From a virus, in IMG/VR virus record IMGVR_UViG_3300024255_000017, positions 17,433-81,432 of that record: DNA of 64,000 nucleotides, one strand, 5' to 3'. The translations under genes were made by a program, and so were the position numbers. The notes beneath the pieces were generated by a model. The model did not search any database and was not told the origin of the DNA. It saw only the letters and a program-made list of their open reading frames with translations. Below, piece by piece: positions 3 to 58,644 of this stretch (within the stretch, counting starts at the first letter, position 1; each line of letters starts with the position of its first letter).

Positions 3-881
3 GTCGCTTTAGCAAATGCATATAATCCTAAGAGAGTGGATTTTAAAAGTGGAGAATGGTACGGATCCAGAAAATTGGATGGAGTAAGATGTATCTGTAG
101 AAAAGAAATGAATACTGTAACATTCTTTTCAAGGAACGGTAAAGAATTTACTACTTTAGGTAATTTGGAAAATGAAATTTCTAAGATAGGTGGAGACTTT
201 ATATTAGACGGAGAAATCTGTATGGTGGATAAAGATGGTAATGAAGACTTCCAAGGAATTATGAAACAGATTCGAAAGAAGGACCATCAAATTGAAAATC
301 CTAAATTCTTTGTATTTGATTATTTAACTTTAGAGGAATTTGATAACAAGACTGGAACTACACCGCTTACTGAAAGACTTAAGAATGGTTATGATATTTT
401 ACCAGAAGGAATTAACTCTTCTATGTTGGAATTCTTAAAACAAGAACAGTTAACTACTGAGGAAAGATTTACTGAAATTAAAATAGCTGCTGAGGATGCA
501 GGATTTGAAGGAATCATGGTTAGAAAGAATATCGGCTATGAAGGTAAAAGAAGCCATAATCTTCTAAAGGTTAAAAAATTCCATGATGCTGAATACACGG
601 TATTAGAATGTGTTAACGGAACAATGAGATGGACAGAAAATGGTAAACAAGTTGAAAAGGAAGGATTAAGTAATATTATAATTGAACATAAAGGTAACCG
701 TGTAAGTGTAGGATCTGGATTCTCTAAAGATCAAAGAGAACATTACCTCAACAATCATAATGAATTAGTCGGTAAAACCGTAACCGTTCAATATTTTGAA
801 GAAAGTCAAAATCAGAATGGTGGATATTCACTAAGGTTCCCGGTAGTGAAACACATATATGAGAATGGAAGAAATTGTTAA
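3..881 (+). CDS. ATP-dependent DNA ligase, 5'-truncated by window edge
   Basis: This is a nick-sealing polynucleotide ligase of the covalent nucleotidyltransferase superfamily. The adenylation motif KLDGVR is visible, with the nucleophilic Lys encoded at about 72-74, followed by LDGEI, a FFVFDYL segment, EGIMVRK (motif IV type) and LLKVKK (motif V type). The C-terminal part, roughly the last 100 residues, looks like the OB domain. The frame is open from base 3 through the GTG at 36, and the residues before that GTG (NPKR, then VDFKSGEWYGSRKLDG) run smoothly into the adenylation domain, so the true start lies left of the window. DNA rather than RNA ligase is favoured by the motif order but not proven. 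The gene overlaps the next one in a TAATG junction. Confidence 0.88.
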   Translation, partial: VALANAYNPKRVDFKSGEWYGSRKLDGVRCICRKEMNTVTFFSRNGKEFTTLGNLENEISKIGGDFILDGEICMVDKDGNEDFQGIMKQIRKKDHQIENPKFFVFDYLTLEEFDNKTGTTPLTERLKNGYDILPEGINSSMLEFLKQEQLTTEERFTEIKIAAEDAGFEGIMVRKNIGYEGKRSHNLLKVKKFHDAEYTVLECVNGTMRWTENGKQVEKEGLSNIIIEHKGNRVSVGSGFSKDQREHYLNNHNELVGKTVTVQYFEESQNQNGGYSLRFPVVKHIYENGRNC

Positions 882-1531
882 TGTATCCATTTCATATCTC
901 ACCTGTGGTGAAGCAACAGAAATTAACCGATATATATTGTATGGAATTATTTGAAAAGTATAGAAAATGGGGGAAGGACATAACTGTCTTTGACGTTGAC
1001 GATACTTTGATTGTAACCAAAAGTAAAATTAGAGTATTTAATCCAAAAACAGGATATGAGATTGATCTTACTCCACAAGAATTTAATACATTTAAAACTA
1101 AGCCTCATGATGAGTTTGATTTTAATGACTTTAGAGATTTAGAAATTCTTAAGGCTGGTAAAATAATTGATTGGGTTTTTAGGATACTCAAAAGAACAAT
1201 TGCAAAAGGTACCGCTGTAGGTATTATTACTGCAAGAGATGATTCAAAACTTATCTATGATTTTCTAATGCATAACGGTGTTGATGTTAATCCTGATTTT
1301 ATCTTTGCAATCAATGATCCTAATTTAGGATTCACTGGCTCTACTGCACAAAAGAAAAAAGACGCCTTTATGAAATTTGTGCAAATGGGATTTAGGAATT
1401 TTCAATTCTTTGATGATGATAAAGAAAATATAAGAATTGCAAATAGCCTCAATAAAGAATTACCTGAGGTAAAAATGAAAGCTACTTTAATTAAACAAAA
1501 ATGGATCCCAAACTTCAGCGACTTCAAATAA
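881..1531 (+). CDS. HAD-superfamily phosphatase
   Basis: This 216-residue protein is a haloacid-dehalogenase-type phosphohydrolase. It has motif I FDVDDTL (nucleophile Asp38, general acid Asp40), a motif II-like IITARDD, and a motif IV acidic cluster FFDDDKEN near residue 170. I chose the ATG at 881 because it overlaps the ligase stop as TAATG; a TTG at 875 would add only two residues. Next to a ligase it may be a polynucleotide 3'-phosphatase, like the phosphatase half of T4 Pnkp, which cleans ends before sealing. There is no kinase P-loop, and a nucleotide phosphatase is equally possible. The end overlaps the deaminase gene by 31 bases. Confidence 0.75.
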   Translation: MYPFHISPVVKQQKLTDIYCMELFEKYRKWGKDITVFDVDDTLIVTKSKIRVFNPKTGYEIDLTPQEFNTFKTKPHDEFDFNDFRDLEILKAGKIIDWVFRILKRTIAKGTAVGIITARDDSKLIYDFLMHNGVDVNPDFIFAINDPNLGFTGSTAQKKKDAFMKFVQMGFRNFQFFDDDKENIRIANSLNKELPEVKMKATLIKQKWIPNFSDFK

Positions 1532-42877: not shown

Positions 42878-43234
42878 ATGAAAACATTTAAAGATTACCT
42901 TACTGAAAGTCATGATGATTCTATAGATATACAAAATCTAATAAATGAATCTTATGATTTAACAGAAGAACAAGAAACTGCAATAGATAATGCAGTTGAT
43001 AGAATTATGGAAGAACATAATAACGGAAAAGATTTAGAAGTTATTATGGAAGAAATAATTAATGAAGGTATATTAGGATCTGTTTTAGGTGGTCTTACTG
43101 GTTTTGCTTTAGGTAAATCTGTAGGAAAGGCTATCGCAAAGGTACTAGGTATTCAAAAAGGAGCCTTGTATGATTTATTAACCAGTCGATTAATTGGTGC
43201 TGCATTAGGTGCAGTATTAGGTAAAAGACTTTAA
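42878..43234 (+). CDS. small glycine-zipper protein with capsid-targeting-like N-terminus
   Basis: This 118-residue protein begins MKTFKDYLTES, closely resembling the T4 capsid targeting sequence MKTYQEFIAE, which directs internal proteins into the prohead and is removed by the gp21 protease after Glu. A charged helical region follows (LTEEQETAIDNAVDRIMEEH), then a Gly-zipper hydrophobic region (GILGSVLGGLTGFALGKSVG and RLIGAALGAVLGKRL) able to enter membranes. I infer an internal head protein delivered with the DNA, perhaps acting at the host membrane. The parallel is by pattern only. Confidence 0.62.
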   Translation: MKTFKDYLTESHDDSIDIQNLINESYDLTEEQETAIDNAVDRIMEEHNNGKDLEVIMEEIINEGILGSVLGGLTGFALGKSVGKAIAKVLGIQKGALYDLLTSRLIGAALGAVLGKRL

Positions 43235-45416: not shown

Positions 45417-46490
45417 ATGGGAACAGAAGTATTAATATCTTCTGAAATGAAAGCTCGGATCATCGATAAGGTGGTCCGAGTTCTTCACCTTAATCATTCT
45501 CACCCAGAAAAAAGGAGAATGTTAGAAAGTAAGGAACGATTAAATTTTGCATGTCCTTACTGTGGAGACTCAACAGATTCAGTAAGAAAAAAGAGAGGTA
45601 ATCTTTATTGGAAAAATTTACAATTCCACTGTTACAATTGTTCAGCTCACGAGAGTTTAGATGTTTTCTTAAAGGATCATAATTTAAACTTTGAAGGCGA
45701 AGACCGTATAGATGTAATTAATTTCATTAAGGAAAATAGAAAAAACTTTTCTTTAGGTGAAACTTTAGAATTTCATTTATTTGATAAGGCAAATAAATTA
45801 GCATTATCATTTGATGAAGTTGCATTAGGTTTTAATGTATATCCTATTAATTCATTAACATACCGAGCATACCCATATCTTAAAAGTAGATTACTCCATC
45901 ACAAAACTGAAAAATTCGGTTATGACCCAAGGAGAAAAGAGCTTTATGTTTTTAACTTAAATAAAAATAAAAAGATAATAGGATTCCAGGTTAGAGCATT
46001 AGAAGATACGAGTGGCCCTAAATATAAAACTTGGAATATAGAAAGAATATATGATAGGCTAAAAAAACAATTGAATGTATCTGAGGATGAACTTGATTCT
46101 TTAAATAAAATATCAATGATATTCGGAATCTTAACAGTTGACTTAGGTAGAGGATTTACGATATTTGAAGGACCTATAGATTCTTTCTTTATGTCAAACA
46201 CATTAGGCTTAACTGGTGTTAAAAAGCAAATTTTAGATTTTGATGAAATACCAACAGCAAGATATATGTTTGATAATGATTATGAAGGTAAAGCTAAAAT
46301 GATTCAGAAACTAAAGAAAGGGCAAACAGTTTTTATGTGGGATAAATATTTAAAGGATTTTGGAATACCTAAGAAAAAGGTAAAGGATTTAAATGACCTA
46401 GTTAAATATGAATTTAAAAATAGGACTGGGTGTTTAAATGAGTTGGATAAATATTTTACAAACAATCATTTAGATTTAATTTTCTTATGA
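45417..46490 (+). CDS. 61: DNA primase, gp61-like
   Basis: This 357-residue DnaG-type primase (T4 gp61 has 342) makes RNA primers for lagging-strand synthesis. An N-terminal zinc-binding domain has Cys46/Cys49 (CPYCGDS) and Cys72/Cys75 (HCYNC). A TOPRIM-like core has Glu251 (IFEGPIDS) and Asp286/Asp288 (MFDNDYEG). No helicase domain is fused; a gp41-type helicase is not in this window. It starts 4 bases after the SSB gene and overlaps the next gene in an ATGA junction. Confidence 0.85.
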   Translation: MGTEVLISSEMKARIIDKVVRVLHLNHSHPEKRRMLESKERLNFACPYCGDSTDSVRKKRGNLYWKNLQFHCYNCSAHESLDVFLKDHNLNFEGEDRIDVINFIKENRKNFSLGETLEFHLFDKANKLALSFDEVALGFNVYPINSLTYRAYPYLKSRLLHHKTEKFGYDPRRKELYVFNLNKNKKIIGFQVRALEDTSGPKYKTWNIERIYDRLKKQLNVSEDELDSLNKISMIFGILTVDLGRGFTIFEGPIDSFFMSNTLGLTGVKKQILDFDEIPTARYMFDNDYEGKAKMIQKLKKGQTVFMWDKYLKDFGIPKKKVKDLNDLVKYEFKNRTGCLNELDKYFTNNHLDLIFL

Positions 46491-46702
46491 TAAAAAAATA
46501 TAATGAATTTGTGGTTGAACAGTTCGAAGATTTTTATAATGACTTAGAAACTTCTAAGAAAAAGCTTAAATTATTTACTAAGTTTAAAAAGATAGAAACT
46601 GATAATGTAAAAAGTAATTTTTCTTTACCTCAACCTAAAAGAAAATTTCAACCAAAGATTAAAAGTTACAAAAAGATTAATAACGATAAAGGAGTATTTT
46701 AA
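46487..46702 (+). CDS. small basic protein with targeting-like N-terminus
   Basis: This 71-residue protein is very Lys-rich, with a basic C-terminal half (QPKRKFQPKIKSYKKINNDK). The N-terminus MIKKYNEFVVEQ resembles the T4 capsid-targeting pattern MKTYQEFIAE in spacing and ends in a possible protease site (V-x-E). It sits between primase and uvsY-like genes with overlaps on both sides. It may be a DNA-binding internal protein or a small replication accessory factor. The family is unknown to me. Confidence 0.55.
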   Translation: MIKKYNEFVVEQFEDFYNDLETSKKKLKLFTKFKKIETDNVKSNFSLPQPKRKFQPKIKSYKKINNDKGVF

Positions 46703-48717: not shown

Positions 48718-50256
48718 ATGAAACCAATCAAAAAGTTTTCAATGATGTCTAAAGCCGAAGGTTCAATTAATGAATCGGCAGATGTCAATCATGATGCTGT
48801 AATGGATCTTGTTAAAAAGATGGGTTACGAAAGCGTTGAAGAATTAAAGAAAGAAAAAAATCTTTTAACTAAATTAGAAGGTTTATTAAAAGATGTCTCC
48901 CCTAAAGACGATATTTCTGAGGATGAACTAGAAGAAGACAGAGCCGAGGATATAGCTGATGAAGTTAAAAAGAAAGGCGAACCTAAGTCATTAGAATCTG
49001 AAGAAGATAAAGATGATGATAAAGTTAGTGCCGAAGGTGAAGTTGCTGAAACTGATGAAGTAGAAGAAGATGCCGCTGAAGAAATAGAAGATGAAGTATT
49101 AGCTAAAGGCGAACCTAAAGATGTAGAAGATAAGGCAGGTGATAAGGTATCTGATGATCCTGAAATTACTGCTGAAGTTCCTGCTGAAGCTGATGAAGTT
49201 GAAGATGAAGATGGTGTTGAGGTTGCTGCTGAAGAAGAAGAAACTCCAGCTGCTACTAAAAGAATCATGGCCTTCGAAGATTTTATTAAAGAAAAAGAAG
49301 TTACAGTAAACAAGAATATCAAATATGCCGATGATGCTGAAGAACCAGAAGATTATTCTGTTGTTGCTGCATCCGCTAAACCATTAGCTGAAGACGATGA
49401 TGAAGATGAAGGTGAAGATGATGAAAAGGAAGGTAATGAATTAGAAGATAAAGGCGATAAGAAAGTTGATTCTGAAGATGACAAAGAAAAGGCTGACCAT
49501 TATAAAGGAGCTGTTAAATCTGATGACTCTGAAATTGATGCATTAAAGAAAGATGCTGAATATGATGAAGAAGAAGAAAAGAAAGATGAATCAAGAATTA
49601 TGTCTTTTTCAAATTTTGTAACTGAATCATATGATGAGGATGAAGTAGAAGAAGAAGAAGAAATAGAAGCTGAGGAAGAAGAAGCTGTAGAAGAAGGCGT
49701 AGGTGAAGTAATTACTAAAGTTACAGGAGATGAAATCGCTGATGAAGAAGCAGGTGATGATGGCCTTGCTATTCCTGCAGAAAAAGGTGACGGTTCTGAA
49801 ACTGCTGCTGGTATTGCTGGAGATATAATGGATATGGGTAAAGTAAAAGTTCAACCTGAAGCAAAGGGTGAAGAATTAGTTACTAAAGACCAAAACATTA
49901 CAACTGAAGTAAAAGGTGAAGCTGACGATCTTAAGGATGCTACTGAAGTTCCTGCAGAAATGGGAGACGGTTCTGAATCTGCCGCAGGTATTGCTGGAGA
50001 CATAATGAATATGGGTAAAGTAAAAGTTCAACCTGAAGCAAAAGGTGCTGCATTAGTTGGAGAAGCTAAGATTAATGAAAAGGATATTACTTCTGCTGAT
50101 GAATTTAAAGAATATGCAATGGCAATGCTAAAAGATGCATTCGGAGATGATTTTGATGAAACTAAAGCAACTGAAACTGCTGATGGTTTAATTGATAAGT
50201 ATGGTGAAGATTACGGCGCAATGGTCGGAGCTTTACAATCTACTATGGGATCATAA
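48718..50256 (+). CDS. highly acidic modular protein with internal capsid-targeting-like motifs
   Basis: This 512-residue protein is extremely rich in Glu and Asp. Two copies of a motif resembling the T4 capsid targeting sequence occur internally: RIMAFEDFIKE (182-192) and RIMSFSNFVTES (293-304), each after an acidic tract. A 33-residue unit (PAEKGDGSETAAGIAGDI ...) is repeated around 352-384 and 411-443. The C-terminal 50 residues (ADEFKEYAMAMLKDAFGDDF) form a compact helical domain. I infer a prohead core or internal protein cut by the phage head protease at several Glu sites. Scaffold is an alternative, since T4 scaffold gp22 is also acidic, but no capsid gene is nearby. Confidence 0.6.
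   Translation: MKPIKKFSMMSKAEGSINESADVNHDAVMDLVKKMGYESVEELKKEKNLLTKLEGLLKDVSPKDDISEDELEEDRAEDIADEVKKKGEPKSLESEEDKDDDKVSAEGEVAETDEVEEDAAEEIEDEVLAKGEPKDVEDKAGDKVSDDPEITAEVPAEADEVEDEDGVEVAAEEEETPAATKRIMAFEDFIKEKEVTVNKNIKYADDAEEPEDYSVVAASAKPLAEDDDEDEGEDDEKEGNELEDKGDKKVDSEDDKEKADHYKGAVKSDDSEIDALKKDAEYDEEEEKKDESRIMSFSNFVTESYDEDEVEEEEEIEAEEEEAVEEGVGEVITKVTGDEIADEEAGDDGLAIPAEKGDGSETAAGIAGDIMDMGKVKVQPEAKGEELVTKDQNITTEVKGEADDLKDATEVPAEMGDGSESAAGIAGDIMNMGKVKVQPEAKGAALVGEAKINEKDITSADEFKEYAMAMLKDAFGDDFDETKATETADGLIDKYGEDYGAMVGALQSTMGS
49771..50046 (+). repeat. two 99-base coding repeats in the acidic protein gene
   Basis: Copies at 49771-49869 and 49948-50046 encode nearly identical 33-residue units that differ at a few positions (KGDGSET versus MGDGSES; DIMDMG versus DIMNMG). 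They are in the same frame and 177 bases apart, indicating internal duplication. Confidence 0.8.
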
Positions 50257-50271
50257 TAAATTAAACTAAAC

Positions 50272-51543
50272 ATGAAACATATAAAATTGTTTGAACAGTG
50301 GCTGACTGACAAAAGTCAGCCATTGTTGTTAGAAGGTGGTGCCGCTGGTCACATGGCTCATCCATTTGATGATAAGGATTTAACCTTTGGTGATTTTAAG
50401 GCAATGATAGATGCTGGTCTTAGAGGTGAATTAAACTTTGAAGAAGAGGCTACTGAAAAGACTGATGGACAAAATGCATTTGCTACCATTCAAGATGGTG
50501 AAGTTAAATTTGCAAGAAACAAAACAGAGTTAAAGAATCCAATGACTCTTTCTGAATTTAAGAATAAATTTGAAGGTCATCCTAGTAAATTAGTACAAGA
50601 TACTTTTCAATTTGCTGCACAGGATTTGGCTAGGTTGCTAATGGGTCTTTCACCAGCTGACCAAGAAAAGTATTTTAAGAATGGAAAAGACTTTATGAAC
50701 ATGGAGTTAATCTACTCGCAAAACCCTAATGTTATTCTTTATGATACAGATGTTATTCAATTTCATGGTATAAAAGAAACAGATGGAAATGGTAATATTA
50801 CAGGTACTAATAATAAACCTGCAAAGGAAATTGCAAATATACTTAAAAAGGTACAATCAGATATTGGTAAAACTTTTAAAATAATTCCACCTAGAGTTAT
50901 TAAATTGCAAAAGGATTTGGATTTTACCACAAACAAGAAAAAATTTATAAATCAAGTTAATGCTTTAGAAAAAAGATACGGTTTAACTGATAGCGATGAG
51001 GTTGGTAAATATCATGAAATGTGGTGGAGAGAATTAATTGATAAACAATTCCCTACATTATCCCAAGATGTAAAAGAAGGCTTACTTAAGAGGTGGGCAT
51101 ACGGTGATAAGAAGAGTTTAAATATGAGATCTCTTGCTAAACAAATTGGACCTAAAGAAGCTGCGATGGTTAAAAAGTTTGATAAAGAAGATGTTGCCAA
51201 AAAGTATAAAGAAAACATTAGACCGTTTGAAGATCTGTTCTTAGAATTAGGATCTGTGATTCTTAAAAATGCATCTGACTTTTTAGCGGCTAATCCATCT
51301 GAGGAGGCACAAAGACTAAGAGCTCAAATTCAAACCGCAGGAAGTAACATTAAAAAGACTGGTGGCGCTGACCAAGTAAGAAAGGTAGAAGCCGAACTAG
51401 CAAGGCTTGATAGAATTGGTGGAATAGAATCAATATTTCCAACTGAAGGTTTAGTATTTAAATATAAAGGAAAAATTTATAAACTTACTGGTACATTTGC
51501 CGCAATTAATCAACTATTAGGTATCATTAAGTACGGTAGGTAA
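50272..51543 (+). CDS. ligase-fold nucleotidyltransferase with capsid-targeting-like leader
   Basis: This 423-residue protein has the covalent nucleotidyltransferase signature: motif I EKTDGQN with nucleophile Lys63, a FMNMELI segment (motif III/IIIa type), and at the C-terminus EGLVFKYKG (392-400, motif IV) plus IYKLTG (motif V). The region between motifs III and IV is expanded by about 200 residues, largely helical. The N-terminus MKHIKLFEQWL ... LLLEGG looks like a targeting leader with a possible cut after Glu21. The family resembles proteins in other T4-type marine phages with the same EKTDGQN motif. RNA ligase or capping-type activity is possible; the substrate is unknown. Confidence 0.65.
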   Translation: MKHIKLFEQWLTDKSQPLLLEGGAAGHMAHPFDDKDLTFGDFKAMIDAGLRGELNFEEEATEKTDGQNAFATIQDGEVKFARNKTELKNPMTLSEFKNKFEGHPSKLVQDTFQFAAQDLARLLMGLSPADQEKYFKNGKDFMNMELIYSQNPNVILYDTDVIQFHGIKETDGNGNITGTNNKPAKEIANILKKVQSDIGKTFKIIPPRVIKLQKDLDFTTNKKKFINQVNALEKRYGLTDSDEVGKYHEMWWRELIDKQFPTLSQDVKEGLLKRWAYGDKKSLNMRSLAKQIGPKEAAMVKKFDKEDVAKKYKENIRPFEDLFLELGSVILKNASDFLAANPSEEAQRLRAQIQTAGSNIKKTGGADQVRKVEAELARLDRIGGIESIFPTEGLVFKYKGKIYKLTGTFAAINQLLGIIKYGR

Positions 51544-51559
51544 AATAGTAGATACACCT

Positions 51560-51576
51560 ATACAGCTCACCTGTAT
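51560..51576 (+). ncRNA. first of three tandem stem-loops
   Basis: ATACAG (51560-51565) pairs with CTGTAT (51571-51576) across a 5-base loop, shortly after the ligase-fold gene. With the next two hairpins it forms a compact structured 3' region that could be a processed small RNA; this is tentative. Confidence 0.35.
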
Positions 51577-51604
51577 TAAGAGATAACATTTACGGTATTT
51601 GTAT

Positions 51605-51627
51605 ATACTCTGATTAGTACAGAGTAT
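51605..51627 (+). ncRNA. second of three tandem stem-loops
   Basis: ATACTCTG (51605-51612) pairs perfectly with CAGAGTAT (51620-51627) across a 7-base loop. It lies immediately upstream of the terminator hairpin. An RNA role is tentative. Confidence 0.4.
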
Positions 51628-51630
51628 GAT

Positions 51631-51659
51631 AAAGGATAGGTATATACTATCCTTTTTTT
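51631..51659 (+). terminator. intrinsic (Rho-independent) terminator
   Basis: AAAGGATAG (51631-51639) pairs perfectly with CTATCCTTT (51647-51655) across a 7-base loop and runs into seven Ts (51653-51659). This is the clearest terminator in the window and ends the transcript carrying the first ligase-fold gene. Confidence 0.82.
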
Positions 51660-51678
51660 ATATAGCTATTTAATCAAA

Positions 51679-51687
51679 GAATATATA
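51679..51687 (+). promoter_or_regulatory. promoter-like GAATATATA motif
   Basis: The motif lies just after the terminator and 32 bases before the ATG at 51711, so the two signals together separate two transcription units. Confidence 0.5.
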
Positions 51688-51710
51688 AATTGACAATATA
51701 AAATAAGCAA

Positions 51711-54700
51711 ATGAAAGAGTTAACTCAAATTTATAAAGATGCAGGCCAACAATTAATAGAAGATCTTTTTAAGGACTATCTTGTAGTATCCGAAAAGCTA
51801 TCCGGTTCTTCATTTTCATTTAAAAAGAATGGTGAAGGAATTACTTTTTATAAAGGTGGAAACCAAAAGCCTATTAACTTAATTGATAGGACTATAATGG
51901 TTTATTATGAAAAGCCTATTAATTTTATAAAATCTGTAACTAGTAAAAACCTTTCTTCTATTCCTGAGAATTGGAAGTTCTGTTTTCAATATTTTGTAAA
52001 TACTAATCCTGGTATTATTACTTATGATAGGCTACCTAAAAATAATTTAGTACTTACTCATATTAAAGTAATGACACCAGCCGGTAAAGTTACAAAGGTT
52101 ATAGAAGATCCTAGGGTAATTAGAGACTGGGCAAACGCATTAGGTGTTACTCCACTACTTCCACTATTTAAAGGTTACTTAACAGAAGATCAAAAGAAAA
52201 AGATTAAAGAATTTTTAGAAACACCAAAAGAAGATCATGCTGAGATTTTTAGCACTAATTCATTTGCTGAATATTTACTTAGAATTTTAAATCCTAATAT
52301 TCAATCAACGACTTTACAAAATGATCTTAAGAAGCCTATAGAATCTATTGTATTTAAATTTTATAAATCTGGCACCAAACAAGTTATTGCTGCTAAGTTG
52401 ATAGATCCTTATACAATTAACTTAATGAAAGAAAAGGAACCTATAGATATGAGAAAGGCTCCTGCTGATATTAATGAAATTATTTTATTGGATCTTTTAG
52501 CATTTATAGAAGAAAGAGGAATTAAGAAGCATGAAATTTTAGGTGATGGTGAAGATATGAGATACATAGAATTGGTCTCAAATATATTCAATGACTATGT
52601 AACCAAAAGAGGAAAGGATATTGCAATGATTGATATTGAAAAAGCTGATTTTGCTAAAGGTAAAGAATTTGATTTAAATGTAGAATTAATACCAAGCCAA
52701 AGAACTAAAGATATCCTTAATAGTAACCCTAAGCTAAAAGACTTATTTAAAATAATACTAGGTTCTTTAAAAAAGAAAAGAAAGAATACTGGTAATATTA
52801 TGACACCATCTGTTATTGAAGATTTTAATAAAATGGTAGATAAAGTAACCGATGTAATTCAAACAAAAGATGATGGTAAATTTAAAACTTTTGATGATTA
52901 CTTAAAAATTAAATCTACCAATGAATCTCTTTTGCCTAATGCCGAGGAACTATTAATTGAAGATAAAGTATTAGACTATAACAATTTTATTAATCTAGGT
53001 AAAGTTATTGTAGAAGAAAAAGGAAAGACTTTAATTAAGAACAAAAAAACTGGAGACGAATATGAAGTAAAAAATCCAGATCCTAAGAAGCATGAAATTG
53101 TAGAACCTGGTGGCAAATCTAATAAGACCGATGAACCTAGGAAAGATTCAAGTGAAAAGATGGGAAAGCTTACAACTAGAGTTGAAGATAAGGTTAAAGA
53201 AATAACAGATCCTACACAGAAGAAAAACGCTGAGGCAGTATTAGATGCAGTTAAGATATTTAATAATCCTGACGCTTCAATGGAAGATAAAGTTGAACAA
53301 GTTAAAAAACTAAATGATGCAGGCCTTATCTTCAGAAATAGTGAATCGGCAAAGGCTACAAAAATGTATCTTGATTCTTCTGCAACTGGATTAAGTAGAA
53401 AGGAATTAATACCAGACACAGGATCTCCTAGTGAAATGGCTAAGGCCATGAAAGAATTCGGTTTAGATAAACTACAAGGTGAAGGTGGTAAGATTGGTAG
53501 AAAGGAAATGACTGGTGCTAAATTATTTGGTGAAGAAAAGGTTGTTAAGGTAAAAACTAAAGTCCTAGATAATGGTATTCAAATCGGAGAAGGTAAAATT
53601 GAAAAGACAAAGATACCATCTGACGAAAAACTTTTATCCGTTTATGGATCTAAAGAAGAGGCTGATCTAGCAAAGAAATATCTAGAAAGAAGAAATAAAA
53701 TTGTTGATGAAGCAATGAAATCTTTTAAAGATGGTGATATGTCAATCATAGAACCTGTTTCTAATACTCCGCCTAACACTTCAGAAAATAGAAAGAAACT
53801 AAAGGATGCAACTAGTGATACTATCAGAGAAGGTTTTGATGAGCAGTTTAAAAAGACAGGTAGAAAACCTAATGCCAAGCAGCAAGAAGTGTTAGATGGT
53901 TTTAGTAATCTTAAGGACATTAAAGATCCTAAAGAATATGACAAGAAGCTACATGATCTTACTGAAGAATTATTTGCAGATCCTTTCTTTGATAGTGCAA
54001 CCGCCGATGTTGCAGAGTTAGTGACTTATATGAGTGAATTAAATAAAGGCAACGAAGTATATATGCCTTCTGCTTCTAATTATCCATTAGGAGATATTAT
54101 ATCAATATCACCAGAGAAAATAGATTTTGAAAAAGATTCACCTGAAGAAATACAAAGAAAGGTACAGTTAATTTATAACGGTGTTGAAGCTAGGTCAATT
54201 AAAAAGGGTGCAGGTGGTGCATCAGCATCTGGAGTAAAAACTGATATGTCAGAGTTTAAAGAAATAACAAATAAGAAAGGTGATAAGATTAGTCCTAAGG
54301 ATGTTAAGAATGACTTATCAGATCTTTCTAATAAAGATAAGGTTTATAAAGAACTCATGTTTGGCGATGCTAGTAAAGCAGAATCAACAATTAACAACAT
54401 AGCTGAAAAATATGACTTTGACTTAGAGGATCCTAAATTTAAAGCAAGGAGAGATAAGTCAGTACAGTCTGCAATTAATAATATACTTAGTAAACCTAAA
54501 TGCGAGGGTACTGATGAGAAAAAGTTAAAGCAAAAATTGGATGCATATTTTAATCAAGGCGAAATGTATGAGAGTTTATACAATGAAAATGTAAAAGAAC
54601 AGTTATTTGTTAATGAACAATACAAATATAGTAAAACTAACGGCTTAGATGTAAATAGAACTGATGGTGTAAAAACGATGGCTAAAGTAAACTTTGCATT

Positions 54701-54776
54701 TTCTGCAGGTTCATGGAGTTGTGATGGTAGACCGTCTAACCCAGTTCCTACTAGATTTGTAAATGATAAGAGTTAA
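51711..54776 (+). CDS. large protein with N-terminal ligase-fold nucleotidyltransferase domain
   Basis: This 1021-residue protein has motif I SEKLSGSS with candidate nucleophile Lys29, WKFCFQYF (motif III type), NLVLTHIKV, and SIVFKFYKSG followed by AAKLIDP (motifs IV and V) before about residue 250. That fits a divergent RNA-ligase-like domain. The remaining 750 residues are highly charged, mostly helical and Lys/Asp/Glu-rich, with a targeting-like stretch FKTFDDYLKIKSTNESLL near 400. The size and charge suit an internal virion protein ejected with DNA. Enzymatic activity is unproven: motif I has Ser where the usual Asp stands (KLSG rather than KLDG). Confidence 0.58.
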   Translation: MKELTQIYKDAGQQLIEDLFKDYLVVSEKLSGSSFSFKKNGEGITFYKGGNQKPINLIDRTIMVYYEKPINFIKSVTSKNLSSIPENWKFCFQYFVNTNPGIITYDRLPKNNLVLTHIKVMTPAGKVTKVIEDPRVIRDWANALGVTPLLPLFKGYLTEDQKKKIKEFLETPKEDHAEIFSTNSFAEYLLRILNPNIQSTTLQNDLKKPIESIVFKFYKSGTKQVIAAKLIDPYTINLMKEKEPIDMRKAPADINEIILLDLLAFIEERGIKKHEILGDGEDMRYIELVSNIFNDYVTKRGKDIAMIDIEKADFAKGKEFDLNVELIPSQRTKDILNSNPKLKDLFKIILGSLKKKRKNTGNIMTPSVIEDFNKMVDKVTDVIQTKDDGKFKTFDDYLKIKSTNESLLPNAEELLIEDKVLDYNNFINLGKVIVEEKGKTLIKNKKTGDEYEVKNPDPKKHEIVEPGGKSNKTDEPRKDSSEKMGKLTTRVEDKVKEITDPTQKKNAEAVLDAVKIFNNPDASMEDKVEQVKKLNDAGLIFRNSESAKATKMYLDSSATGLSRKELIPDTGSPSEMAKAMKEFGLDKLQGEGGKIGRKEMTGAKLFGEEKVVKVKTKVLDNGIQIGEGKIEKTKIPSDEKLLSVYGSKEEADLAKKYLERRNKIVDEAMKSFKDGDMSIIEPVSNTPPNTSENRKKLKDATSDTIREGFDEQFKKTGRKPNAKQQEVLDGFSNLKDIKDPKEYDKKLHDLTEELFADPFFDSATADVAELVTYMSELNKGNEVYMPSASNYPLGDIISISPEKIDFEKDSPEEIQRKVQLIYNGVEARSIKKGAGGASASGVKTDMSEFKEITNKKGDKISPKDVKNDLSDLSNKDKVYKELMFGDASKAESTINNIAEKYDFDLEDPKFKARRDKSVQSAINNILSKPKCEGTDEKKLKQKLDAYFNQGEMYESLYNENVKEQLFVNEQYKYSKTNGLDVNRTDGVKTMAKVNFAFSAGSWSCDGRPSNPVPTRFVNDKS

Positions 54777-54792
54777 AATTATTAAAGGATCT

Positions 54793-54801
54793 GAATAAAT
54801 A
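54793..54801 (+). promoter_or_regulatory. late-promoter-like GAATAAATA motif
   Basis: The motif is 21 bases before the ATG at 54814 in the short gap after the 1021-residue gene. Confidence 0.45.
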
Positions 54802-54813
54802 AAAAAAGTGTAC

Positions 54814-56184
54814 ATGGATAATCTAAAAAACATACAAGATTTTATAACAGAAAAAAGAGTTACTGTTAAGAGGAGATATACTGAAAATCACCCAGCTAAA
54901 AATGTATCTACTTCGGCTAGAGTACGTTCTGCTATTTTAGATGCTGTTGCTGATGGTCATTTAACTGAAGACGAGGTTAGCAATATCTTATCTGAAATAA
55001 AGGCTCATAAAAGATGGCTTAAAAGAAATGCAGGATTGTTTAATATTAGTGAAGACGAAACTGGAGTTAAGAGATATTCTTTATCACCGTATGGTCATAG
55101 AGTAAGAACTGCAACCGCACCAATTAATGAAGCTTTAAAAGTACCTCATAAAGAAAAGGGTAAAAAACCAGTAAATATGTTTGTTGGTAGATTCCAACCT
55201 TTTACATTAGGGCATGTTAAAGTATTTGAAAAAATGTATAAAGAAAATGGTTTACCTGTAGTTGTTTATATGGTAAGAGGTAGTAGGCCTGATCCAGAGA
55301 AAAGACCATTTGATGAAGATATGCAACAAGCTATGTTTGCTAAAATGAAAAAGCAATATCCATTTTTGGAAGCAAGTATTGTAGTTCCTAACGGAGCAAT
55401 TGATACAATGTTTGCAGCAGCAAGACCAACGTATGAACCTATGATGTGGGGTTATGGTACTGATAGAAAGAAAGATTATGGTGCAATGATTGACAAACAA
55501 TCATACCGAGATCAATTAGGAGTTGATCCAAGTTTTAAGGGTTATGAAATACCAAGAACAGGAGAAAATATTTCAGCATCTAAGGTTAGGAATGCTTTAA
55601 AGATAGATGATGAAAATACTTTTAAGAAAATGACTCCTAAAAGCATACATAGTTTTTATAAACCATTACAAAATATATTAGAACCAATAAAAGAAAATAA
55701 CAATATGAAAAATTTAAAATCACTAACAAGTTTTAGCATTGACGAATCTTTGAATGAAGGTAAAAAAGCTAAAGCAAAAAACCCTAATAAAGTAAACACT
55801 ATAGATGTTGATTTATCTGGAGACGATTCAGATATAATGGATGCAATTAAATCATTTAATCTAAAGGTTAAATCTAACGGAGCCAATAAAGGAACTGGGT
55901 ATGATATGACAGGTAAAAATAAAGATATTCTTGATTATTTACAAAGTGACTATTATGCATTAGATGCTAGCGATATTGAGGATATGTTTCCAGAATTATT
56001 AGAAGGTGAAATCAATGAAGAGTATATTGAATTAATGCCAGAGATTGCAAATGCATTAGGTACAATCCAAATGGACTGGGACAGATGGAAAAATGGACCA
56101 GCAACAGAACCTTCTGATATTAAACCAGCAGCAAAAGAACTTAAAGGTTGGATTACTCGTTGGATGAAACAAAATATTAAATAG
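54814..56184 (+). CDS. NMNAT/cytidylyltransferase-type nucleotidyltransferase with targeting-like leader
   Basis: This 456-residue protein has a HIGH-superfamily nucleotidyltransferase domain at about 118-290: GRFQPFTLGH (125-134) and ISASKVR (253-259) are the two ATP-binding motifs of NMN/pantetheine adenylyltransferases, as in NadM/NadR. The N-terminus LKNIQDFITEKR resembles a capsid-targeting leader. A second such sequence begins at in-frame Met298 (MKNLKSLTSFSIDES), followed by a distinct 150-residue acidic domain, so the gene may be a fusion or have an internal start at 55705. I prefer the ATG at 54814 over GTG at 54808. NAD synthesis is likely but the substrate is not proven. Confidence 0.7.
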   Translation: MDNLKNIQDFITEKRVTVKRRYTENHPAKNVSTSARVRSAILDAVADGHLTEDEVSNILSEIKAHKRWLKRNAGLFNISEDETGVKRYSLSPYGHRVRTATAPINEALKVPHKEKGKKPVNMFVGRFQPFTLGHVKVFEKMYKENGLPVVVYMVRGSRPDPEKRPFDEDMQQAMFAKMKKQYPFLEASIVVPNGAIDTMFAAARPTYEPMMWGYGTDRKKDYGAMIDKQSYRDQLGVDPSFKGYEIPRTGENISASKVRNALKIDDENTFKKMTPKSIHSFYKPLQNILEPIKENNNMKNLKSLTSFSIDESLNEGKKAKAKNPNKVNTIDVDLSGDDSDIMDAIKSFNLKVKSNGANKGTGYDMTGKNKDILDYLQSDYYALDASDIEDMFPELLEGEINEEYIELMPEIANALGTIQMDWDRWKNGPATEPSDIKPAAKELKGWITRWMKQNIK

Positions 56185-56411
56185 TGAATAATTTAATTAA
56201 TGAAAATGAAGCAGGTACTGTTGGCCTAAATCCTAATATGAATGTACAGGGCATGGGAGCAGTTGAGCTTCCAGGCGATCCTGGTTCAGCAAATTCTTTT
56301 GCTACTCAAAAGGTTGGTAGTGGTGATGATCCTGAAGGAAAAAAGAAAAAGAAAAAGAAGATGTTACTTTTATCATTTGATAAGTACATGGAGCTTTTAA
56401 AATCAAAATAA
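56184..56411 (+). CDS. small unknown protein with lysine run
   Basis: This 75-residue protein starts with GTG in a one-base overlap with the previous stop (TAGTG). The N-terminal half is Gly/Asn/Pro-rich (NPNMNVQGMGAVELPGDPGS), then a run of seven Lys (GKKKKKKKM) and a short helix LSFDKYMELLKSK. A short leader NNLINE ends in a possible head-protease site (I-x-E). A DNA-neutralising internal head peptide would fit, but I do not recognise the family. Confidence 0.5.
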   Translation: MNNLINENEAGTVGLNPNMNVQGMGAVELPGDPGSANSFATQKVGSGDDPEGKKKKKKKMLLLSFDKYMELLKSK

Positions 56412-56421
56412 ATAAAGTATA

Positions 56422-58644
56422 ATGGCAGTAATCCCAAAATATACACTTAAGTCCTTGTTTGAGGCAGGTGACTTAATGACACAGGATAGCTTTGATGATT
56501 TTATTGATTCGGCATATAACCCAACACTTGTAGCTGGTGCAGATATACAATTAACAACAGTGTCTACCCCTAGCGGAGATACAATAACTATATCTTCAAC
56601 TGGTAGCGGTGGCGCACCGATTATAGAAGGTCCAGGTATAGATATTACAACAGTTGGTTCTGACAAGAAAATCTCAATTGATTTAAATACAGGTCAAACT
56701 AATCTAATATTTGATGGTAATGATAAGCTAACTTTTGCAGGTGTACATATAAAAGATGAAGGGGCTGCCGTAGGTACTTATCCAACAATTAATTTTGTAG
56801 GTGTTGATGTATTAGCTGAAGATAGTGGAACACCAGGACAAGTAAATGTTTATATACCAACACCAACATTTGCATCACATTATAATACAACAGACGGTAC
56901 AACTAATGGTTTGGTAACTGAAAATACTCCAAGAAATACTGTTAGGATTAGTACTCCTACTTTAGAAGGTACACCTTTCTTTACAGGTGGTTGGGCTGGA
57001 ACAAACCAATATGCATATAATGGCACAGGGGCTGGTCAAAATGTACTTACTACTACCGGGTTAGTAACTGGTCTTAGTCCATCAGGTAGTGGTGATGCAA
57101 AAATACAGATCATTGTAACAGACGGTGGCGGAAACGAAATTAGTAATAATACCTCTCCTGTGTTAGATGGAAACCTAAATTTATTTACACCTGACCTTCA
57201 TTGTACCATCCAGGTAACTGGTTATGCACAAGACACTTCTAAGTGGAAAGGAAAAATCATGGTTAGTGTAGATATGCCGAAGGTATTTCAGGATGCAGGA
57301 TTAAGTGGTGGTCGTTATTTTATAAAAACTATTATGACAACTGATACAGTAACGGATGGAGGAAATGCATATTCTTATATACAAAACGATGTATTTTGGG
57401 ATAAGAATGATTTAGGAGGTTATCCATCCAGTCCACAAATAAATGGTAATGCATCAATTATAGAAAACACTTCATCTATAATATCAAAACACTTAAGCGG
57501 GGTTGAATATTATGTAAGCGGTTCTCAATTTGAAGTTGATGTTACCGATATAGATTATTTAAATAGTAATACTCAAGGAAGATCATCGAGCGCAGTATGG
57601 AATTTCCAAGTGTTAGGTAGTGATTATGGTTTAAGTCCTATCCAAGAAGAGGCATGGAATCCTTCAGCAGGAATGACATTCCCTGGTTGGGATAATAAAT
57701 ATGATACATTAGATATAGATTTTGATTATGATAATTGGCCTATCACTGCATCTAACTATAGATTTAGAAATGATGATGCTACTGTGGCTGCTAGGGTATG
57801 GGATCCATGGGTAAGTAGTTTACCATCAGGAACCAATTCACCAGGTGCAAAAATATTAATTGATACTTATGGAGTTACAAGTGATAATTTAACTGAAAGA
57901 TTTGATGATGAGGCCGAGAGATTAACAACAGTAGGTGGAGCTTATACATCATTTGACTCCGTTACATCATTAGTACCTTCAGGTTTAACTAATCAAACTA
58001 CAAGTGCGTTATCACCAGGTCCTTTTTGTCAAGGAGTAGTAGTAGGAGGTACATTAATTAGACCAGATAAATTCTTTAGTGATAATGGTAATTCACCTGA
58101 CACTAGTGATTTATTAGGAAACTTAGTATTATATAAACCTAATGTAGGTGGAACTAATCCTGATTACAGTGGTGTAGGTTATCAAGTACCTGCAACATTT
58201 CATAGATTATTTGAAGCTAGCTCATCAAATCTAGGAAGACCTATTTCATCATTTGAATTAACATTTAGTGGATCCTTTGTTGGTGGAACTGTTTATGATT
58301 CTTTGGTAAGTAATGATTTAAGAATATATGTTAGAAAGAAAGCAGCTGCATCTGGTTCAAATATAGGAATTACTGCAATACCTCATTCATTACATAATTC
58401 AAATCCATTTAGTGGAAGTTATCAAGATCCACCTGCATCAGTTGATGATAACACACAATCGCAATGTAGAACAACAACGTCTGCAAGCAGTGTAATATCT
58501 GGGTCATTTGGAACTTCTCCTGCTTTAGATGGATTTTATATAGAAGTACAAATACATAATCCACTAATTAGAATAGGTGGAATATCTGCAAAAATAATTT
58601 TTAGTTCAGGTTCACCAACTACCGAGAGCGGTGGTAATGTATAA
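56422..58644 (+). CDS. receptor-binding fibre protein, collagen-free paralogue
   Basis: This 740-residue protein is paralogous to the next gene over its C-terminal 550 residues: GGWAGTNQYAYNG versus GGWSGSNTLR; VWDPWVSS ... AKILIDTYG versus LLDPWSDT ... NKILIDVAH; TFHRLFEA versus IFHRLFND. The N-terminal module (VIPKYTLKSLFEAGDLMTQD) differs and there is no collagen tract. It starts 10 bases after the small Lys-rich gene. It is likely a fibre carrying the same distal domain on a different shaft. Confidence 0.65.
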   Translation: MAVIPKYTLKSLFEAGDLMTQDSFDDFIDSAYNPTLVAGADIQLTTVSTPSGDTITISSTGSGGAPIIEGPGIDITTVGSDKKISIDLNTGQTNLIFDGNDKLTFAGVHIKDEGAAVGTYPTINFVGVDVLAEDSGTPGQVNVYIPTPTFASHYNTTDGTTNGLVTENTPRNTVRISTPTLEGTPFFTGGWAGTNQYAYNGTGAGQNVLTTTGLVTGLSPSGSGDAKIQIIVTDGGGNEISNNTSPVLDGNLNLFTPDLHCTIQVTGYAQDTSKWKGKIMVSVDMPKVFQDAGLSGGRYFIKTIMTTDTVTDGGNAYSYIQNDVFWDKNDLGGYPSSPQINGNASIIENTSSIISKHLSGVEYYVSGSQFEVDVTDIDYLNSNTQGRSSSAVWNFQVLGSDYGLSPIQEEAWNPSAGMTFPGWDNKYDTLDIDFDYDNWPITASNYRFRNDDATVAARVWDPWVSSLPSGTNSPGAKILIDTYGVTSDNLTERFDDEAERLTTVGGAYTSFDSVTSLVPSGLTNQTTSALSPGPFCQGVVVGGTLIRPDKFFSDNGNSPDTSDLLGNLVLYKPNVGGTNPDYSGVGYQVPATFHRLFEASSSNLGRPISSFELTFSGSFVGGTVYDSLVSNDLRIYVRKKAAASGSNIGITAIPHSLHNSNPFSGSYQDPPASVDDNTQSQCRTTTSASSVISGSFGTSPALDGFYIEVQIHNPLIRIGGISAKIIFSSGSPTTESGGNV

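Follow-up and report, generated by a model that had tools for sequence, protein, structure and literature searches.

What might a phage gain from a row of genes that places two ligase-fold proteins next to an enzyme of NAD+ synthesis, and where would these proteins act? This question is raised by positions 48718-56411 of a 64,000-nucleotide stretch of viral DNA (hereafter the window), which comprises bases 17433-81432 of the 81,432-base IMG/VR virus record IMGVR_UViG_3300024255_000017. The block consists of five consecutive plus-strand open reading frames (ORFs), encoding an acidic protein of 512 aa (acid512), the ligase-fold proteins lig1 (423 aa) and lig2 (1021 aa), a protein of 458 aa with a nicotinamide mononucleotide adenylyltransferase-type domain (the NMNAT protein) and a protein of 75 aa (p75). 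ORFs were called mechanically throughout, and the relatives used for comparison are metagenomic. A preliminary description of this DNA had proposed a virion cartridge of nucleotidyltransferases within these limits, and the bounds are exact, with 48718 as the start of the opening ORF, 56411 as the end of the final one and all five on the plus strand. We propose, with a probability of roughly 0.58, that the block gives rise to T4-type internal head proteins, with RNA-repair and NAD enzymes and an exchangeable cargo that would be packaged and processed by a gp21-type protease.

Packaging is indicated above all by a short leader peptide. In the relative G001, a simple pattern ([FYL]xx[FYW][LIVM]xE within the first 24 residues) occurs in 24 of 272 genes, compared to 1.1 expected from internal stretches, and the peptides follow the consensus MK[KH][IV]KLFE[ED]F[LIV]NE. 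The 24 bodies that carry it have no BLAST match to one another and the synonymous codons of the leaders vary, which rules out a DNA-level cause of the likeness, such as recent duplication or a translation signal, and indicates that selection acts on the peptide. A position matrix built from 21 N-termini of this single genome and then applied to the others found N-terminal matches of at least 12 bits in G000 (4), G002 (6), G003 (12) and G005 (10), with 0.35-0.70 matches at any position in shuffled sequences. When T4 was used as a control, the matrix ranked gp61.1, IPII and IPIII first to third and the protein taken to be IPI (MKTFKEFTSTTT...) ninth; these gene names were assigned from the sequences. 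The recovery of the T4 proteins bears out the earlier suggestion that the leaders are of the T4 capsid-targeting sequence (CTS) type. In the CTS of T4 IPIII, residues 4 and 7 direct targeting and residues 8 and 10 govern processing (PMC9026906); the conserved columns of the leaders described here agree with these determinants, which further supports a T4-type interpretation.

In the window's own genome, nine matches reach 7.5 bits, and six of these lie in the block, whose share of the residues is 9.8% (binomial P 6e-5). Five of the six are internal; among them, the match within the NMNAT catalytic domain probably arose by chance. The top match of the whole 81-kb genome is the N-terminus of lig1 (25.2 bits; 0 of 400 shuffles). 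CTS-like peptides thus exceed chance in the block, as had been claimed. The claim that they lead the block genes held in part: lig1 has an N-terminal leader and the NMNAT protein a weak one, lig2 has internal copies only, and not every gene carries the peptide at its N-terminus. Three features described below go beyond the preliminary description, namely the leader copies inside proteins, the exchange of the lig2 C-terminal module and the mimicry of the capsid arm by p75.

The structure predicted for lig1 is that of a remote RNA-ligase fold. The AlphaFold2 model has a pLDDT (predicted local distance difference test) of 84 with residues 1-26 disordered, and its 26 top Foldseek matches in the PDB are all RNA or DNA ligases (Trl1, T4 Rnl1, Rnl2, Naegleria ligase; best E 3e-3). 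Motif I was correctly identified in the preliminary description as EKTDGQN with Lys63, a residue that is invariant in an alignment of 30 relatives, as are the other motif residues; the motif IV/V candidate is TEGLVFKYKGKIYKLTG, and the protein has a long helical insertion. When lig1, lig2 and the NMNAT protein were compared by sequence with solved structures, only chance matches resulted, and Pfam, PHROG and NCBIfam models returned no ligase annotation for lig1 or lig2.

The leader of lig1 scores as a T4-type CTS, a type defined by aromatics at positions 4 and 7 and hydrophobic-x-Glu, though it ends in Asp. An Asp at CTS position 10 in T4 preserves targeting and blocks processing (PMC9026906), which makes a second site, LLLE21/GG, the better candidate for cleavage; its Glu21-Gly22-Gly23 is invariant in relatives. 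The [LIV]xE-GG element is retained in lig1 homologues, and the leader that precedes it is replaced between clades. By analogy with T4, this suggests cleavage at LLLE21/GG rather than at the end of the leader, while the Glu-Gly-Gly could instead be conserved as part of the domain.

For lig2, AlphaFold2 predicts a ligase domain (residues 1-385), a mostly disordered linker to about residue 484 (pLDDT below 50 across most of residues 393-484) and a second domain (485-1020). The top Foldseek match of the ligase domain in the PDB is T4 Rnl2 (E 1.1e-5, probability 1.00), and its best viral structure matches are an NMNAT-type fusion and RNA ligases. Its motif I, EKLSGSS with Lys29, is likewise as first described; Lys29 is invariant in 32 sequences, and IESIVFKF...KLID are the candidates for motifs IV/V. 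Given this predicted fold and the motif I Lys, with no curated sequence-profile match, we speak of an Rnl2-like fold and do not assign lig2 to the Rnl2 family. The designation of lig1 and lig2 as ligase-fold proteins stands; both have predicted RNA-ligase folds, that of lig1 at weak scores, which makes RNA repair more likely than the joining of DNA ends. A DNA-ligase function was set aside, since the fold matches are mainly RNA ligases and the window encodes a separate ATP-dependent DNA ligase at 36-881.

The linker of lig2 contains two CTS-like copies, and just after the second of these lies a boundary at which the C-terminal module is exchanged between phages. The ligase domains of loci L020/L021 and L035 are 99% identical with unrelated modules; conversely, modules that are 98% identical (L049 and L102) or 94% identical (L020 and L091) are joined to ligase domains of 72% and 62% identity, respectively. 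An [LIV]xE tripeptide follows the copies in 26 of 26 distinct linkers, which are related and hence do not represent 26 independent events, compared to 18% of background stretches; its residues vary before different modules (VIE, LNE, IIE, LSE, INE, IVE). The module of lig2 had no match in annotated phages, and one remote match was obtained for another module type. A PD-(D/E)xK-like reading of its motif SIKxGxGGAS was supported by no tool and is not claimed. We tentatively suggest, at somewhat less than even odds, that the CTS-like peptide is a recombination joint and lig2 a packaged carrier, composed of RNA ligase, targeting peptide, protease site and a payload swapped in the manner of polymorphic effectors, such that each virion would bring a constant RNA-repair and NAD kit and one variable injected effector.

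Peptides of this kind are also found inside acid512, a probable core or carrier protein of the head whose remote relatives have leader-like N-termini, and at the C-terminus of fused lig2-NMNAT proteins (IMTFEQFINK, up to 15.6 bits). The NMNAT-type domain named in the preliminary description is supported by Pfam CTP_transf_like (3.8e-7), a PHROG cytidyltransferase family (1.7e-12) and, at scores under their cut-offs, NCBIfam NMN-adenylyltransferase models, the best score against the curated equivalog TIGR01527 being 29.1 bits vs a cut-off of 181. GRFQPxxxGH is found in 83 and ISA[ST]xVR in 82 of 84 homologues. Translation probably starts at ATG 54814 and not at GTG 54808. In lineages with the lig2-NMNAT fusion, a separate gene also encodes the N-terminal domain of this protein (residues 15-106). 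The separate gene itself bears a leader in G001 (MNFNQFLNE), and in L067 it begins with a sequence that resembles one (MSNFNDFINN). Judged from the sequences, internal copies, module exchange and a recurring domain would together give the appearance expected of modules that are separated by a protease.

The block is widely conserved. We confirmed 528 stretches related to lig1 in IMG/VR, and 80 fetched loci share the gene order primase, p71, UvsY, helicase, acid512, lig1, lig2, NMNAT, with p71 missing from remote clades. An acid512 homologue lies 5' of lig1 in 79 of these 80, and lig2 and NMNAT are present in all 44 loci that extend at least 5.2 kb beyond lig1, as a single ORF in 15 of them. 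The same row, with the lig2-NMNAT fusion, occurs in the uncultured phage LR756500 (462 kb), and Microcystis phage Mel-JY01 carries an NMNAT-lig1 fusion near its terminase and prohead protease. Since the same parts have been fused in two different ways, lig1, lig2 and NMNAT appear to constitute one functional unit. The lig1 family is almost confined to phage contigs; among bacterial genomes it was found in two short contigs of metagenome-assembled genomes only. Capsid neighbours point to Bacteroidota as the probable hosts. As a stand-in for the group we tried the cultured Tenacibaculum phage PTm1, in which neither a lig1 match nor a leader set was found; the leader matrix gave no match above 10 bits in PTm1 or Mel-JY01.

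Several observations connect the leaders to the head. In G001, G003 and G005, a small leader-bearing protein is encoded between the portal and the S77 prohead protease, the position of gp67/gp68 in T4, and leader-like genes lie downstream of the capsid gene in G002, G003 and G005. The S77 protease was found in six of the nine records searched (G001, G002, G003, G005, LR756500 and Mel-JY01). That of G002 (L120:18182-19903) continues into a long C-terminal extension, in which Y-x-x-Y-[LIV]-[AG]-E units that resemble the targeting peptide and its cut site recur; the extension is probably a fused core or scaffold part. Within the block itself, p75 copies the N-arm of the major capsid protein (61% over 46 aa to that of G002, E 5e-14). 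T4 gp61.1, encoded at L168:18966-19130, similarly aligns to gp23 residues 57-93, which span the processing site (score 82 vs 47 for the best of 500 shuffles). Each protein holds a copy of the capsid N-arm of its own phage or clade, and the two share one design, in which CTS, arm copy and poly-Lys are combined in one small protein; the CTS comes first in gp61.1 and is last and degenerate in p75. Small head proteins that mimic the capsid arm may form a conserved class.

Leader-bearing genes of the relatives offer a view of the possible cargo. Homologues of the anti-CBASS (cyclic oligonucleotide-based antiphage signalling system) protein Acb1 carry a leader in G001 and G003 (PF23474, 1.8e-7 and 5e-7), with the 2H motifs HCT and HMT and a weak phmmer match to solved Acb1. 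Their leaders are MKKIKLFEEFLNE in G001 (L130:2454-3020) and MKKIKLFEEFMNE in G003 (L140:3684-4226). On this basis, these two phages may inject Acb1 together with their DNA, and this is the most direct hint of counter-defence proteins in the leader set. Among the other leader-bearing proteins, some of G001 and G003 have matches to ATP-grasp families, and one from G005 (L149:19114-20001) has a zeta-toxin/AAA_33-type P-loop kinase domain; a PADLOC search of the leader-bearing proteins gave weak matches only. Another leader-bearing protein is encoded in G002 (L124:13389-15074), and G001 contains clusters of small leader-bearing genes (L133:6248-9808 and L138:8287-12472), with at least six in one run, which are a possible store of injected proteins.

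We propose the following sequence of events. CTS-like peptides of the form K-[IV]-K-L-[FY]-x-x-[FW]-[LIV]-x-[ED], placed at the N-terminus of lig1, in weak form at that of the NMNAT protein and within acid512 and lig2, would attach to the prohead core and thereby cause the proteins to be enclosed during head assembly, with acid512 as an acidic core or carrier. A gp21-type protease might then cut at [LIV]-x-E, which would free lig1 after Glu21 and probably also parts of lig2 and the NMNAT protein, and the freed enzymes could leave the head with the DNA. In the infected cell, lig1 and lig2 would act as RNA ligases of the ATP type and reseal RNA that host nucleases have cut, most likely tRNA, NMNAT would make NAD+ from NMN, and the C-terminal module of lig2 would be delivered as exchangeable cargo. 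Leaders, synteny, folds, fusions and module exchange were obtained by calculation, and packaging of the block proteins is strongly suggested by their sequences; cutting, ejection, catalysis and an anti-defence purpose, against host systems that cleave RNA or deplete NAD, we infer.

A number of points weigh against this proposal. The record that contains the window is an 81-kb fragment without head genes. The lig1 leader of this clade ends in Asp (WLTD), and T4 cutting needs Glu; lig2 has no N-terminal leader, its copies being internal (residues 390-430); and the leader of the NMNAT protein is weak (6.1 bits), with a peptide from the catalytic domain of the same protein scoring higher. Mel-JY01 has the NMNAT-lig1 fusion, yet its genome has no leader set. 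In the lig2-NMNAT fusion of LR756500 (L118:7992-9953), motif I reads SENLDGS, without the catalytic Lys, and some fused clades carry KVAAP where KLSGS is expected, so lig2 catalysis may have been lost in places. Finally, NAMPT, which is needed for NAD+ salvage from nicotinamide, was present in two of seven records (G001, without a leader, and LR756500) and was not found in G002, G003, G005, Mel-JY01 or the 81-kb fragment.

Other explanations would account for parts of the evidence. Leader-packaged proteins could serve head assembly or DNA packing as a structural core, their enzyme domains being vestigial or secondary. Their near-universal conservation in a fixed place (44 of 44) fits a core rather than a host-specific accessory role, p75 copies a capsid arm, the lig2 of LR756500 has no catalytic Lys, and T4 IPIII affects head form (PMC9026906). 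However, Lys63, Lys29 and the HIGH motifs hardly vary, which is unexpected for dead domains, and the leader is also found on Acb1 homologues; we regard a purely structural role as unlikely. It is quite unlikely, in our judgment, that the enzymes act in the infected cell after their synthesis there, in ordinary RNA repair and NAD supply, and that the N-terminal likeness has no part in head targeting. Large phages do frequently encode RNA ligases and NAD synthesis (PMC7824862), genes of replication (primase, UvsY, UvsW) lie beside the block and lig2 has no N-terminal leader, but the same peptide is found on dozens of unrelated bodies, matches proven CTS proteins of T4 and is present at the gp67/gp68 position.

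NMNAT-type and ligase-type domains have been fused repeatedly, in two arrangements, and this could also reflect a different chemistry, in which the pair caps, tags or modifies RNA or protein ends, or regenerates NAD+ for an NAD-using ligase. The weak Foldseek matches of lig1 and the NMNAT scores below curated cut-offs leave room for such an activity; since by fold lig2 resembles the Rnl2 group of ATP-dependent RNA ligases and not NAD-dependent DNA ligases, we consider it improbable. T4 gp63 combines RNA ligase 1 activity with a function in tail-fibre assembly, and large fibre- or collagen-like genes lie downstream of the block at 56422 and 58687, which would be compatible with lig1 as a fibre assembly factor of this type. 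To our knowledge, gp63 has no head-targeting leader, and a role in the head is favoured by both the leader and the capsid-arm protein; we consider this explanation extremely improbable.

Packaging in the head, the reading that we prefer, places the block next to several known systems. T4 Ip1-3 are injected inhibitors of GmrSD enzymes (PMC12373910). The CTS of IPI-IPIII and Alt resembles the leaders described here in being a short N-terminal peptide with two aromatics three apart and an [ILV]xE cut site, carried by unrelated bodies. Unlike in T4, the cargo here consists of enzymes (RNA ligases, NMNAT, Acb1, ATP-grasp, kinase), copies are also internal and C-terminal, and a genome can hold up to about 30 leader genes (G001). 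With T4 Rnl2, lig2 shares its predicted fold, the motif I Lys and motif IV/V candidates; it differs in that its ligase domain is joined either to NMNAT or to a CTS-like linker with an exchangeable module. T4 RNA ligase 1 (gp63) and fungal Trl1 are the best fold matches of lig1, at weak scores (best E 3e-3). Phages salvage NAD+ by Nampt and Nmnat, and their NMNATs can be fused to Nudix or kinase domains (PMC7824862). These systems share the NMNAT-type domain and, in some relatives, NAMPT with the present one, in which the fusion partner is an RNA ligase instead of a Nudix domain or riboside kinase and head-targeting peptides are present.

The general idea of head-packaged enzymes that act on NAD+ derivatives has already been published: Iyer and co-workers predict polyvalent or head-packaged NAD/ADP-ribose proteins, with enzymes that are carried in the head and deployed at entry (PMC9503650). 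Those systems are recognized by MuF or portal fusions or by late-gene neighborhood, and here the mark is a T4-type targeting peptide; the passages covered mention no RNA ligase-NMNAT pair (PMC9503650). A literature search that covered few subscription papers yielded neither a unit of RNA ligase and NMNAT nor an Acb1 that carries a targeting peptide, and no case of targeting peptides inside a protein accompanied by the swapping of modules.

The coordinates of the block features, and of others in the window, are collected in Table 1. T4-type genes of the window encode baseplate proteins, a tail tube, a RuvC-like nuclease, a single-stranded DNA-binding protein, a primase, a UvsY-like protein and a UvsW-like helicase, the last so named from its sequence. 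The block adjoins these replication genes, with acid512 directly 3' of the helicase. At window positions 36-1531, an ATP-dependent DNA ligase (PHROG 114, 9e-54; ORF 36-881) is followed by an HAD-type protein that matches polynucleotide kinase (PHROG 415) and is possibly a 3'-phosphatase for end repair. A ATATATAAA-like stretch is common to the regions upstream of 42878, 48718 and 51711, which are starts of leader or block genes. The sequence TATATAAA, considered as a shared late promoter, lies upstream of 6 of 48 genes vs 1.6 expected from mononucleotide shuffles; this was too weak and was not used, and a late promoter is a possible identity for both stretches.

Table 1. Features of the block and of the surrounding window (window coordinates).
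Feature	Position	Strand	Basis and remarks
118-aa protein outside block, closest T4-like leader MKTFKDYLTE	42878..43234	+	leader kept in relatives
71-aa protein outside block, leader MIKKYNEFVVE	46487..46702	+	14.9 bits
acid512, acidic protein (33% D+E)	48718..50256	+	ORF; internal leader copies; homologues in relatives
acid512 internal CTS-like copy 1, residues 182-192, RIMAFEDFIKE	49261..49293	+	13.6 bits, 0/400 shuffles; conserved in relatives
acid512 internal CTS-like copy 2, residues 293-303, RIMSFSNFVTE	49594..49626	+	10.5 bits; conserved in relatives
lig1, predicted RNA-ligase-fold protein, 423 aa, motif I Lys63	50272..51543	+	AlphaFold2 model, Foldseek, invariant Lys63
lig1 N-terminal leader MKHIKLFEQWLTDKSQPLLLE	50272..50334	+	25.2 bits; candidate cleavage after Glu21
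Terminator-like hairpin, lig1/lig2 intergenic	51631..51655	+	9 pairs, T tract; count not above regional chance
lig2 ligase domain (residues 1-385), predicted T4 Rnl2-like fold, motif I Lys29	51711..52865	+	AlphaFold2, Foldseek
lig2 disordered linker, CTS-like copies KFKTFDDYLKI and KVLDYNNFINL, then [LIV]xE site VIVE	52878..53010	+	7.8 and 9.5 bits
lig2 C-terminal exchangeable module	53049..54776	+	swapped between phages
NMNAT protein	54808..56184	+	weak leader NLKNIQDFITE; helical domain 15-106; HIGH-type domain ~119-290; C-terminal domain from ~300
p75, major capsid protein N-arm copy (residues 5-50), then poly-Lys, degenerate CTS-like tail	56184..56411	+	major capsid protein match

The leader profile provides a sequence-only test for head-packaged proteins that finds the known ones of T4. 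Each relative yields about 10 to 30 candidates, a large part of them without known function, which could be screened for counter-defence. If our interpretation is correct, a large group of uncultured aquatic T4-like phages would bring RNA-mending and NAD+-restoring enzymes into the cell before phage gene expression, in some phages together with an anti-CBASS enzyme, and the exchange of payloads at the targeting peptide would provide a simple route for swapping injected effectors.

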